Shown piece by piece: positions 10,315 to 53,629 of a stretch of 64,000 nucleotides of DNA. Below the pieces are notes generated by a model. The model searched no databases, was not told the origin of the DNA, and worked only from the letters and a program-made list of their open reading frames with translations. The translations under genes were made by a program, and so were the position numbers. This stretch comes from Prochlorococcus sp. AG-347-J21 (GTDB lineage Bacteria > Cyanobacteriota > Cyanobacteriia > PCC-6307 > Cyanobiaceae), in NCBI GenBank assembly GCA_003281455.1, contig QCBX01000001.1:124001-188000 (forward strand). The letters are read 5' to 3'. How positions within the stretch are numbered: position 1 is the first letter of the stretch; the number at the start of each line of letters is the position of its first letter.

Positions 10315-11520
10315 ATGGGAGCAAGTAATAAAAATGCCCAAGATAATATCCAACCAAAGGGCAATAAAAAACCTCTTCAGGTACTTCACATAAGCAAGAA
10401 AGATTCTCAAGAAATAAATAATGAGCAAAACAATTCGCAAGAAGATATAAAAAAAGAAAATATTGCAATCAAACCTCAAATCATTAAAGATAATTCAGTA
10501 AAAGAAATTGAGGACAGTAATGAAAAGACTAAGGATTTTGATATTTCTCAACAAGATTTAACTCAACAAGACTTAAATAGACCGCTTAATTTTTCTGAGC
10601 AAAATACAGATTTTCAATTAGAAAGAACAGTTGATGAATTCGATTTTGATGAAAGTGCTTTTTTGGAGGCTTTAAATGCAAATGAGCCAATTGGGGCTAC
10701 TGGAGAAACAATTTCAGGTAAGGTTATAGCAATCGAAAGTGATGGATTATATGTTGACATTGGTGGAAAGGCACCTGGTTATATGCCCAAAAAAGAATGT
10801 GGTTTGGGTGTCATAACTAACTTTAAAGAAAAGTTTTCTATAGGCCTTGAAATGGAAGTTTTGGTTATCAAAGAACAAAATGCTGATGGGATGGTAACAG
10901 TGAGCGCTCGGGCATTAATTCTCAGGCAAAGTTGGGAGAAAGTATCAAGTTCCGCAAAAAATGGGGAATTAATTAACGTCTTAATTAATGGATTTAACAG
11001 AGGTGGGCTTACTTGTGATGTAGATGGATTAAGAGGATTTATCCCCAGATCCCAACTTGAAGATGGTCAAGATTATCAATCTTTTGTTGGCAAAAATCTA
11101 AAAGTGGCGTTTCTTGAGGTTAATCCAGAATCCAGAAAATTAGTTCTCTCTGAGAAGAAAGCATCATTAGTTTCTAAACTTACAAGTCTAGAATTAGGTC
11201 AATTAATTGAAGGAGAAGTTTTAGCTGTAAAACCATATGGCTTTTTTATTGATTTAGGGGGAGCTAGTGGACTTCTTCATCAATCCTCACTAACAAATGG
11301 ATCGATTCGTTCTTTAAGAGAAGTTTTTAGAGAAGGGGAAATTATAAAAGCTTTGATATCTGAAATTGACCTCGAAAAAGGGCGCATTGGTCTCAATACA
11401 GCACTCCTGGAAAACTCTGCGGGAGAATTAATTATTGATAAGCGAAAAGTTATGCAAGAAGCCACAGAGAGAGCATCAAAAACTAAAGCACTCTTCGATA
11501 AAAAAGAACAAGATAAATGA
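10315..11520 (+). CDS. S1 RNA-binding domain protein (ribosomal protein S1 homologue)
   Basis: 401-aa protein with a polar, Gln/Asn/Lys-rich N-terminal third (about residues 1-110) and three S1 (OB-fold) repeats: about 130-203 (beginning GETISGKVIAIESDG), 215-287 and 298-370 (beginning GQLIEGEVLAVKPYG). Short S1 homologues of this kind in cyanobacteria have been annotated as a second rpsA or as a nucleic-acid-binding protein; whether it sits on the ribosome cannot be told from sequence. ATG at 10315. The stop overlaps the start of the Tab2-like gene (ATGA), so the two are translationally coupled. Confidence 0.85.
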   Translation: MGASNKNAQDNIQPKGNKKPLQVLHISKKDSQEINNEQNNSQEDIKKENIAIKPQIIKDNSVKEIEDSNEKTKDFDISQQDLTQQDLNRPLNFSEQNTDFQLERTVDEFDFDESAFLEALNANEPIGATGETISGKVIAIESDGLYVDIGGKAPGYMPKKECGLGVITNFKEKFSIGLEMEVLVIKEQNADGMVTVSARALILRQSWEKVSSSAKNGELINVLINGFNRGGLTCDVDGLRGFIPRSQLEDGQDYQSFVGKNLKVAFLEVNPESRKLVLSEKKASLVSKLTSLELGQLIEGEVLAVKPYGFFIDLGGASGLLHQSSLTNGSIRSLREVFREGEIIKALISEIDLEKGRIGLNTALLENSAGELIIDKRKVMQEATERASKTKALFDKKEQDK

Positions 11521-12422
11521 ACATCAACAAAAAAATAGAGTCAAGTCTTAAATTAAAAATTTCAGATTGGGAATTAGACTTTTACTCAAGACCAATTATT
11601 GAATCAAACGAAAAAAAAAGGTGGGAGTTAATTATTTGCTCTACAAGAAGTTATAAGACAGAAGATATTTTTCTTTGGAATAAAAAATGCCCTGCCAATG
11701 AAGTTAACTCAGTATGGCTTACAAAAGCACTAAATGAAGCAATAAGTGAAGCAAAAAAACAAGGGTGGGAGAAACCTTCAATAGTTCGATTCTGGAGGTC
11801 TTCAATGAAATCGATCATTAAAAAATCTCTGGAGGCCCTTAGTATTGAGGCTATTGTAAGTAGGAGAACTTACGATTTATTTGATAGAATCGAATTTCTC
11901 GAGAAAGAGATTTATCCAAAGGAAAAAGGTTATATAAGAGGTGTATTAGCCCCTACTTTTTCTTCTAAAATGGAAAACCCTCCTCAACCTCTGCCAGAAG
12001 CAGTGAGGGGAGATGCTTTAACTATCTCTGAAATATCAATTGGCGAATTAAAAACAGCCGAAAATTGGCCTATAGAATTTGGAGATATTTTCCCAATTCA
12101 GCCAGATTTAGATGATAATTACTTAGTTCCTGGATTAAGACTTTTTAGCAAAGATAGATCTTTAGCACTTTCTGCATGGTTCAGTTGTTTAGAACCTGTT
12201 AAATTAGTAATGAATAAGAACCAACTCATACTTGAAGCTTCGGAAGATGATAAGTGGCTGGTAACTGATTTACCAGAAAAAGATGCAAACATTTTGAATA
12301 CAAAGTTTTTAAAGAATAAAAAAAATTCTTTTGGTTATCAATTTATTTCCATACAGTCAACGCCTTATATCGAAAAATTTGCAGGATTCTGGATCTTAAG
12401 AGATATTGAATTAATTACATAA
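11517..12422 (+). CDS. Tab2/Atab2-like RNA-binding protein
   Basis: 301-aa homologue of Tab2, the chloroplast factor needed for translation of the photosystem I psaB mRNA in Chlamydomonas and its plant relative Atab2. The N-terminal ISDWELDFYSRPI and RWELIICST segments, the IVRFWRSSM region, and the C-terminal GFWILRDI are family features. In cyanobacteria the role is inferred to be photosystem gene expression or assembly. The ATG overlaps the stop of the S1-domain gene by four bases, and an RNA-binding partner directly upstream fits a shared job in RNA handling. Confidence 0.83.
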   Translation: MNINKKIESSLKLKISDWELDFYSRPIIESNEKKRWELIICSTRSYKTEDIFLWNKKCPANEVNSVWLTKALNEAISEAKKQGWEKPSIVRFWRSSMKSIIKKSLEALSIEAIVSRRTYDLFDRIEFLEKEIYPKEKGYIRGVLAPTFSSKMENPPQPLPEAVRGDALTISEISIGELKTAENWPIEFGDIFPIQPDLDDNYLVPGLRLFSKDRSLALSAWFSCLEPVKLVMNKNQLILEASEDDKWLVTDLPEKDANILNTKFLKNKKNSFGYQFISIQSTPYIEKFAGFWILRDIELIT

Positions 12423-12431
12423 ATTCTGTTT

Positions 12432-12436
12432 AGGAG
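12432..12436 (+). promoter_or_regulatory. Shine-Dalgarno AGGAG ahead of the ATT start
   Basis: AGGAG ten bases past the TAA of the Tab2-like gene, eight bases before ATT at 12445. Strong ribosome-binding sites are rare at neighbouring genes, so its position here decides the start of the YfiH-like gene. Confidence 0.6.
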
Positions 12437-12444
12437 CAGGAACT

Positions 12445-13227
12445 ATTCCTTACAAAGAAATATATTTCTCAAAAGATGAAATTTATATTCAAAACAAAAA
12501 ATTTGAGTATTATTCATCACCTATTCTTAGTCAAAATAATTTCAAACATGCATACTTCACAAAGTCTTGCTCTGAGAAATTTCTTCAATTATTAGGGAAT
12601 CACTTTAATGGAAATTCCATAAATTGTGTTTCCAATCAAATTCACAGTAATGTGATAGTGTTTGGATCTCATTCGCAAAAAGGTACTAAGACTGATGCAG
12701 ATGGTCTTGTTGGCAATAAATGCAGTCAAAACTTATGGGTTTACACAGCTGATTGTATGCCAATATTTTTTGCAGATAAAAGGACAAGAAATGTAGCGAC
12801 CTTGCATTGTGGAAGAAAAGGTTTAGAAAAAAAAATAATAAAAAATCTAGTAAAAATTTTCGATACTTTTGGGACATCAAGAGATGACTTACTTGTTGCA
12901 ATAGGACCAGCGATTTCTAAGGAACATTATCTAGTTGATAAAATGACACTCAATGAATTTTATAGAAAGGCCGAAAACAAAAACATAACTTTCAAATTGA
13001 CTAAAACTAAAAAAGATCTTTGTTTTAGTGATTCAAATCACTTCAGAGAGCAAAACTTTAATCAACTTGATATAAAAAGATCTGCTTATAGACAACTTTT
13101 AAATGAGAACATCCCTCATACAAATATTGACATCTCAAATTTATGCACATACAAATTCAATAATGAATTTTATTCCTGGAGAAGGAGCAAAACAATCTCG
13201 AGACAATGGAATCTTATTTGCTCATAA
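12445..13227 (+). CDS. YfiH/laccase-domain protein, probable ATT start
   Basis: Member of the YfiH (PgeF, polyphenol-oxidase-like) family, which hydrolyses purine nucleosides or damaged peptidoglycan precursors in characterised relatives. The frame is open from 12415 to the TAA at 13225-13227. The three zinc/active-site residues are present: His67 (NQIHSN), Cys104 (TADC) and His121 (LHCG), with spacing 37 and 17, close to the 36 and 17 of the E. coli protein (His71, Cys107, His124). There is no ATG, GTG, TTG or CTG in frame between the upstream stop and 12652; GTG at 12652 would begin three codons after His67. An AGGAG at 12432-12436 lies eight bases before ATT at 12445, which I take as the start (260 aa). 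A sequencing error of an ATG is the main alternative. Confidence 0.75.
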   Translation: MPYKEIYFSKDEIYIQNKKFEYYSSPILSQNNFKHAYFTKSCSEKFLQLLGNHFNGNSINCVSNQIHSNVIVFGSHSQKGTKTDADGLVGNKCSQNLWVYTADCMPIFFADKRTRNVATLHCGRKGLEKKIIKNLVKIFDTFGTSRDDLLVAIGPAISKEHYLVDKMTLNEFYRKAENKNITFKLTKTKKDLCFSDSNHFREQNFNQLDIKRSAYRQLLNENIPHTNIDISNLCTYKFNNEFYSWRRSKTISRQWNLICS

Positions 13228-52427: not shown

Positions 52428-52712
52428 TTAATTTTCCTCCAAAGTATTAAAAGACTTTAATGCATCGTCAATAGCATCAGAAGGATTAGTCGCGTCATTC
52501 ATACTATTTTGTCTCCTAATCATTTCCACAATTTCTAATGGATTGGTTGGAAGAACTGCACTATCCTCTTCTGTTTTAGTTGAAGTATCGATATCTAATT
52601 CTTCAAATAAATATTCAGCATTTAGTATAGTTCCTTTTAAGGAAATTATGGAAATACAGGAAATTATTAAAGGTATTGAGTTAAGTAGACCCTTCAAAAA
52701 ACATTTTTTCAT
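52428..52712 (-). CDS. Small exported or membrane-anchored hypothetical protein
   Basis: 94 aa from ATG at 52712. A basic start and hydrophobic stretch to about residue 28 resemble a signal peptide, followed by an acidic, Asp/Ser/Thr/Asn-rich tail (SDAIDDAL near the end). No known family. It is divergent from xth. Alternative TTG at 52727 adds five residues. Confidence 0.55.
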   Translation of the reverse strand: MKKCFLKGLLNSIPLIISCISIISLKGTILNAEYLFEELDIDTSTKTEEDSAVLPTNPLEIVEMIRRQNSMNDATNPSDAIDDALKSFNTLEEN

Positions 52713-52783
52713 TTTATTTAATTTCAAAATTCTTTAACGCCAAAATTTTTTGCTAACTTAATTTTACATAAATTGGTAGAAAA

Positions 52784-53629
52784 TTGTTAATAGCAACTTG
52801 GAATGTTAACTCAATAAGAACCAGACTTTCACAAATATTAGATTGGATTAATCAAGTCAATCCAGACATTCTATGTTTGCAAGAAACAAAAGTGATGGAC
52901 AATATTTTCCCAGTTGAACCTTTTGAAAATTTAGGGTACTCAGTGGAGATATACGGACAAAAATCCTACAATGGTGTTGCTATTATTTCAAAAATAAAAC
53001 CAGAAAATGTCAGAAAAGGATTCTACAGTAGTACCGACTCTGATCAAAATATCGAGGTATTCCTAGATCAGAAAAGATTAATTTCTGCTGACATTAGTGG
53101 TATTAAAATTATAAATGTCTATGTGCCAAATGGATCAGAATTAGGATCTAATAAATTTGAATACAAAATAAATTGGCTGAATTGTTTAGCTTCATTTTTG
53201 GATGAACAAGAAAAAAAAGGAGAATTAATATGTTTGTTGGGTGACTTTAATATTGCTCCATCAAACTTAGATATTCATGATCCAAAGAAATATAAAGGAG
53301 GAATAATGGCATCAGAGGTAGAAAGGAATGCACTAAACAATGTTCTGAAAGGAAGATTAATAGACTCTTTCAGAATTTTTGAAAAAAACAGTGGTCATTG
53401 GTCTTGGTGGGATTACCGTAATAACGCATTTGAATTAAATAAAGGATGGAGAATAGACCATATCTACATCAGTAAAGAATTAACATCAAAACTTAAAAGC
53501 TGTGTTATAGACAGCTTGCCAAGGGAGAATTTACGCCCGAGTGATCATACCCCAGTAATGATTAATCTTGAATTGAACAATATAAATGTGGATTCTTTTG
53601 AGGATGAGGATAATTTTTACGAAATATAA
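52784..53629 (+). CDS. xth: Exodeoxyribonuclease III (AP endonuclease)
   Basis: Removes 3' blocks and cleaves abasic sites in base-excision repair. 281 aa: ATWNVNSIRTR at the N-terminus, LCLQETKV with the metal-binding Glu, the GDFNIAP motif, and RIDHIYIS with SDHTPV (catalytic Asp-His) are all found. The start is TTG at 52784 and leaves the first beta strand at the N-terminus; no ATG upstream is in frame. Divergent from the small hypothetical gene. Confidence 0.95.
   Translation: MLIATWNVNSIRTRLSQILDWINQVNPDILCLQETKVMDNIFPVEPFENLGYSVEIYGQKSYNGVAIISKIKPENVRKGFYSSTDSDQNIEVFLDQKRLISADISGIKIINVYVPNGSELGSNKFEYKINWLNCLASFLDEQEKKGELICLLGDFNIAPSNLDIHDPKKYKGGIMASEVERNALNNVLKGRLIDSFRIFEKNSGHWSWWDYRNNAFELNKGWRIDHIYISKELTSKLKSCVIDSLPRENLRPSDHTPVMINLELNNINVDSFEDEDNFYEI

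Follow-up and report, generated by a model that had tools for sequence, protein, structure and literature searches.

A probable AUU start codon, compensated by a Shine-Dalgarno sequence, in the pgeF (yfiH) gene of Prochlorococcus

The window, that is, the whole 64,000-nt stretch of Prochlorococcus sp. AG-347-J21 DNA that was analysed, contains a run of three genes of which pgeF (yfiH) is the last (Table 1). The genes for the S1-domain protein and the Tab2-like protein overlap by 4 nt, and 22 nt lie between the TAA of the Tab2-like gene and the ATT at position 12445. The preliminary description of this stretch had stated that the pgeF frame contains no ATG, GTG, TTG or CTG between the upstream stop and the GTG at position 12652, and direct inspection of the sequence confirmed that this is the case.

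Table 1. Features of the pgeF locus, numbered from the first nucleotide of the window
Feature	Position	Strand	Remarks
S1-domain protein gene	10315..11520	+	First of three tightly packed co-directional genes; Pfam PF00575 (S1)
Tab2-like RNA-binding protein gene	11517..12422	+	Upstream of pgeF, co-directional; Pfam PF06485 and PF20429
In-frame upstream stop TAA	12412..12414	+	5' bound of the open pgeF frame
Shine-Dalgarno (SD) sequence AGGAG	12432..12436	+	8-nt spacer to ATT; conserved among relatives
Probable start codon ATT	12445..12447	+	ATT in 137 of 144 close relatives; ATG, GTG or TTG in 19 of 20 second-group loci
pgeF (yfiH) CDS, read from ATT	12445..13227	+	260 codons plus TAA (13225-13227)
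Conserved His67 codon CAC (numbered from ATT)	12643-12645	+	
GTG, first canonical in-frame start codon	12652..12654	+	Judged not to be the start; 3' of the conserved His67

The pgeF product scores 159.1 bits against the PgeF equivalog profile TIGR00726 (curated cut-off, 141.15) and 141.8 against Pfam PF02578 (cut-off, 22.9), and many homologues match it over residues 1-260. In E. coli YfiH, the catalytic triad is formed by C107, H124 and D89, and H71 also has a role (PMC8844914). Here C104, H121 and D86 align to chain 1u05 and the QIHS motif aligns with 1rv9; in an alignment of 30 sequences H67, D86, C104 and H121 are invariant, so that the Cys-His-Asp triad and the additional His are all present. 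The residue spacing from the ATT, previously said to match that of E. coli YfiH, agrees approximately, not exactly (C104, H121 and D86 versus C107, H124 and D89). By these profile and residue matches the product is PgeF, a predicted cell-wall quality-control enzyme of the UDP-MurNAc-L-Ser amidase family. In 141 of the 144 close loci described below, the frame runs uninterrupted for 253-265 codons, and the shorter pieces in the remaining three are taken to be cut by contig ends. A pgeF-like match in a related genus (G404:C15:2703-3449) has three TGA and six TAA codons in frame and is a probable pseudogene. Six genomes that are 99-100% complete, namely G115, G169, G189, G219, G230 (genus g79) and G399 (of the same genus as the present genome), gave no match to this PgeF query; other members of those same genera do match it, which may reflect a patchy loss of the gene or copies that have diverged beyond the reach of the query.

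Codons of the form NTG make up 2.7% of the two genes upstream of pgeF, and the probability that 79 codons of the pgeF frame would lack them by chance is about 0.11. The lack of a canonical start codon could thus be fortuitous by itself, and the case rests on homology and conservation among relatives. The relatives were sampled as the best 80 of 151 from genomes of named species, together with 400 genomes drawn from the larger family; within the genus, matches were recognized in 217 of 266 genomes, and loci were taken for part of these. The 233 loci with a readable N-terminus collapsed to 173 distinct ones, comprising 144 close relatives (58% identity or more), 20 loci of a second Prochlorococcus group and nine distant loci; the division between close and second groups was set after the codons had been seen, and the tree gives the same split. 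Three loci without the N-terminus (L252, L263 and L266) and 30 infC loci were left out. Of the 164 rows in the two Prochlorococcus groups, 162 (143 and 19, respectively) entered the tree, which was built with the start codon excluded and was rooted with L262. Analyses that required gapless columns drew on sets of 120 and 102 rows, and an earlier, smaller set of 124 close rows has been replaced by the 144 except where stated.

At the position of the ATT, the 144 close loci have ATT (137), ATA (four), ATC (two) or TTT (one), so that a near-cognate codon of the AUU, AUA or AUC type is present in all but one of them. The 20 loci of the second group have ATG (17), GTG (one), TTG (one) or TAT (one; L264) at the same position, which in 11 of them lies within a match that begins at the first residue and in the other nine was extrapolated over 5-7 residues from a match beginning at residue 6-8. 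No canonical codon occurs between the upstream stop and the start position in 132 of the 144 close rows. The A and the T of the ATT have changed once and not at all, respectively; the third base changes at about the rate seen in Ile codons inside the gene and is therefore no mark of a start by itself. In L073 and L117, which are counted as ATT, the start region reads ATA ACT ATT. This looks like the duplication of a 6-base unit and provides two near-cognate candidates in tandem; the start in these two loci may be the ATA two codons before the ATT, which lies at the usual distance from the SD sequence.

The two groups also differ in what precedes the codon. A strong SD motif (GGAG, GAGG or AGGA) is present in 138 of the 144 close rows versus none of the 20 rows of the second group, and the median anti-SD duplex energies are -6.5 and -0.2 kcal/mol, respectively. 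AGGAG itself was found in 130 of the close rows; the spacer between a GGAG and the codon measures 8 nt in 124 close rows and 7 nt in eight. Such motifs are uncommon in the window, occurring in six of 47 genes when the first ATG is taken as the start. The number of changes per base is 0-5 in AGGAG, 7-10 in the spacer from -8 to -4 and 1-3 from -3 to -1, and is followed by codon periodicity after the start; two conserved islands, AGGAG and the A and T of the ATT, are thus split by a variable spacer. The stop of the Tab2-like gene and the pgeF start are 22 nt apart in 125 of the 144 close loci versus 10 nt in 15 of the 20 loci of the second group (this stop was not found in one close and two second-group rows), and the SD sequence is therefore accompanied by extra sequence. 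The start proposed in the preliminary description, namely the ATT eight bases past AGGAG, is strongly supported by these relatives, and ATT and AGGAG are both kept in other Prochlorococcus, the pattern that the preliminary description had named as support for its claim.

A hairpin hiding the SD sequence, in which AGGAG would pair with a UUCCU on the far side of the start codon (-3.2 kcal/mol when 26 nt are folded), was considered as a regulator and rejected. The codon after the start has 9-10 changes at each base, which counts against such a structure. All four pairs of an alternative GGAA/UUCC stem are retained in 95 of the 144 rows, and the folding energy around the start is alike in the close and second groups (medians, -8.5 and -8.4).

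On the tree, a single change from ATG to ATT falls on the branch leading to the clade of 143 rows, and the SD motif was gained on the same branch, which has a low SH-aLRT support of 46 under the rooting used. After this switch, the tree shows three changes from ATT to ATA, two to ATC and one to TTT, with no return to ATG. The SD motif was lost five times within the tree. An in-frame ATG or GTG has been regained just upstream in L023 and in the clade of L159, L160 and L245 (support, 90), and the SD motif is absent from three of these four rows versus three of the 140 others (Fisher p 1.6e-4), a value that overstates the case because the four rows represent two independent lineages. In L159, an ATG is present three codons upstream, the SD motif is absent and TTT replaces ATT; similarly, L161 has an in-frame TTG and no SD motif. 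Against this pattern, L160 has the GTG yet keeps GAGG, L245 keeps ATT, L020 and L053 have lost the SD motif (to GGGG) although no start was regained, and GGAG persists in five rows that have TTG at codon -5.

Comparison of the relatives places the start on the ATT position or very close to it, with ATG as the ancestral codon there, and shows that the weak codon and the SD sequence go together. Translation of pgeF thus very probably begins at a genuine AUU at 12445 that is compensated by its SD sequence. The 30S subunit would be positioned by the AGGAG 8 nt upstream, the AUU would be read by the initiator tRNA, and ribosomes finishing the Tab2-like gene 22 nt upstream may help pgeF initiation, since coupling at this distance is plausible. 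In the ancestor of the clade, ATG was replaced by ATT, and the SD motif and the longer intergenic gap appeared. The weak codon has since been kept, varying only within AUU, AUA and AUC except in the TTT lineage with an in-frame ATG three codons upstream. AUU with a strong SD sequence would then give about the same modest rate of initiation as the AUG without an SD sequence in the second group, and such roughly equal rates would amount to a stabilized trade-off between start codon and SD sequence.

In addition to an AUU start, and not in place of it, selection may have maintained the codon to throttle translation, with IF3 discriminating against it so that the output of PgeF follows the IF3 level or the growth state; we regard this as rather doubtful. 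IF3 disfavours start codons that lack a 3' G (PMC4611024), the GTC start of sigR is repressed by IF3 (PMC5472188), and ATG is found at the position in none of the 144 loci though changes to ATA and ATC occur. However, at 4-fold sites T-to-G accounts for four of 36 changes from T, so that only about 0.6 reversions to ATG are expected; the absence of any is not significant and is no proof of selection for a weak start. Some lineages also carry an upstream ATG or GTG. The analogy with infC drawn in the preliminary description, in which AUU serves IF3-dependent feedback, finds no support: infC of Prochlorococcus starts with ATG in all 15 loci with an intact 5' end (loci were obtained for 16 of the 19 same-genus genomes with a match, one being cut by a contig end), and the product of the present gene is PgeF, not an initiation factor, so feedback of the infC type is not expected here. 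By analogy, a general sensitivity of the pgeF AUU start to IF3 is likely in principle. A fuller scenario, in which a single AUG-to-AUU switch was fixed with a new SD sequence and then selected as a throttle on peptidoglycan editing across more than 100 species-level lineages, with PgeF output following the initiation-factor level or growth state, seems slightly more doubtful still. As a whole, the earlier interpretation is therefore partly supported, and the observation from which it started is real.

A start further downstream, either at GTG 12652 or at a near-cognate codon such as ATA 12460 or ATT 12481, is improbable. GTG 12652 is the first canonical codon, and the Pfam match largely survives truncation to it (135.3 bits). 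As noted at the outset, however, this GTG follows the active-site His codon and is unfit as a start: the product would lose His67 and other invariant residues, those upstream of the GTG in the 30-row alignment being S25, F33, T39, L50, Q65 and H67. Codons 1-68 are under frame-specific purifying selection, with 291 synonymous and 361 non-synonymous changes in frame; read in the two shifted frames, the same 102 rows give 104/576 and 110/564. Nor is the GTG universal: among the 113 rows of the smaller set that have no canonical codon upstream, the next one downstream is GTG at codon 69 in 52 rows and GTG at codon 71 in 12, and there is none within 79 codons in another 12. By eye, no such downstream codon lies at SD distance. 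The constraint signal rises further into the gene (190 synonymous and 230 non-synonymous changes in codons 1-44); codons 1-10 taken alone (30/71) show no greater constraint than the ten codons before the ATT (39/90). A start a few codons downstream therefore passes this test, and the first codon is pinpointed by the SD spacing together with the indels, the stops and the ATG found in the second group.

Even less probable is a start further upstream, or a joining of the Tab2-like gene and pgeF by frameshift or readthrough, in either of which the ATT would be an internal Ile codon. The frame is open for ten codons upstream in 118 of the 144 rows, and ATT, ATA and ATC are synonymous for Ile. Against this, an in-frame stop within seven codons upstream, or a shift of phase relative to the Tab2-like stop, is seen in 19 of 143 rows and traces to about 13 separate changes on the tree, and 17 of the 20 second-group loci carry ATG where the close group has ATT. 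In L014, L016, L018, L127, L133, L143, L147, L151 and L238, for example, TAA or TGA stands just before the SD core. These close stops and phase shifts exclude fusion, readthrough and well-upstream starts in the lineages concerned. Changes involving stops number five in codons -10 to -1 versus none in codons 1-68 and 70-199 (102 rows). That an assembly or sequencing error hides a true ATG, or that the gene is decaying, is scarcely credible even for a draft genome (26 contigs, 93% complete), because ATT is common to 137 of 144 distinct loci, including those of single-contig genomes (G413, locus L032; G154, locus L046) and of the named strains MIT 9201 (L068) and MIT 9314 (L077), and the frame is intact over its 253-265 codons in 141 of the 144.

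The probable AUU start of pgeF has counterparts in other bacteria. It shares AUU initiation with pcnB of E. coli, which reportedly starts with AUU and is said to be translationally limited by this inefficient start. The infC gene of E. coli also starts with AUU, but is autoregulated by IF3 (PMC5472188). According to the same source, sigR of Streptomyces is another gene outside infC with a non-canonical start, and differs from pgeF in that the codon is GTC and repression by IF3 was shown experimentally. In Borrelia burgdorferi, pncA (BBE22) encodes, like pgeF, a metabolic enzyme with an AUU start; a truncated product is listed in databases, and the start is backed by biochemistry, genetics and a crystal structure (PMC13398362), whereas that of pgeF is backed by sequence. 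A likeness is also seen to cvfC1 (AUU), ccpN (AUA) and infC (AUA) of Staphylococcus, which combine a non-canonical start with an extended SD sequence as pgeF does, and in the case of cvfC1 both elements are said to be conserved among staphylococci, as they are for pgeF in its clade (PMC13009471). These starts were mapped by ribosome profiling, and those of cvfC1 and ccpN were tested with reporters, according to that paper, whereas the start of pgeF is predicted from sequence comparison; the Staphylococcus cases concern other genes, and for pgeF the switch from AUG and the gain of the SD sequence can be placed on a tree.

In a survey of switches among AUG, GUG and UUG, Belinky et al. (2017) described a tendency of weaker start codons toward stronger SD sequences, as in pgeF, and counted one AUG-to-AUU switch among 61,358 ancestral AUG starts; their survey could not settle the direction of the joint changes in codon and SD sequence (PMC5622118). 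Our literature search for Prochlorococcus with AUU or non-canonical start codons found no papers, and among the Prochlorococcus papers listed for start codons, Shine-Dalgarno sequences, translation initiation or ribosome profiling, no title or opening of an abstract concerns the pgeF start. AUU starts are thus a small kind already known elsewhere, and pgeF is unusual for its clade-wide retention of the codon and for the visible compensation. Switches to AUU being extremely rare, it is of interest that the pgeF switch, the SD gain and the partial reversals can be followed on a dense tree of a phototroph abundant in the ocean, and their presence on one tree makes compensation between start codon and SD sequence testable in a single gene. 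It is also implied that gene callers limited to ATG, GTG and TTG would truncate or miss PgeF across the clade.

Within the window, two of the 67 long frames have no ATG, GTG or TTG in their first 25 codons, one being pgeF and the other the frame beginning at 52432. The latter (52432-52737, plus strand) looks by eye like the antisense of a minus-strand gene and is judged spurious. At about 52785-53000 on the plus strand there is an apparent TTG start, the N-terminus read by eye being LIATWNVNSIR..., which we take to be the start of an exonuclease III-type protein.
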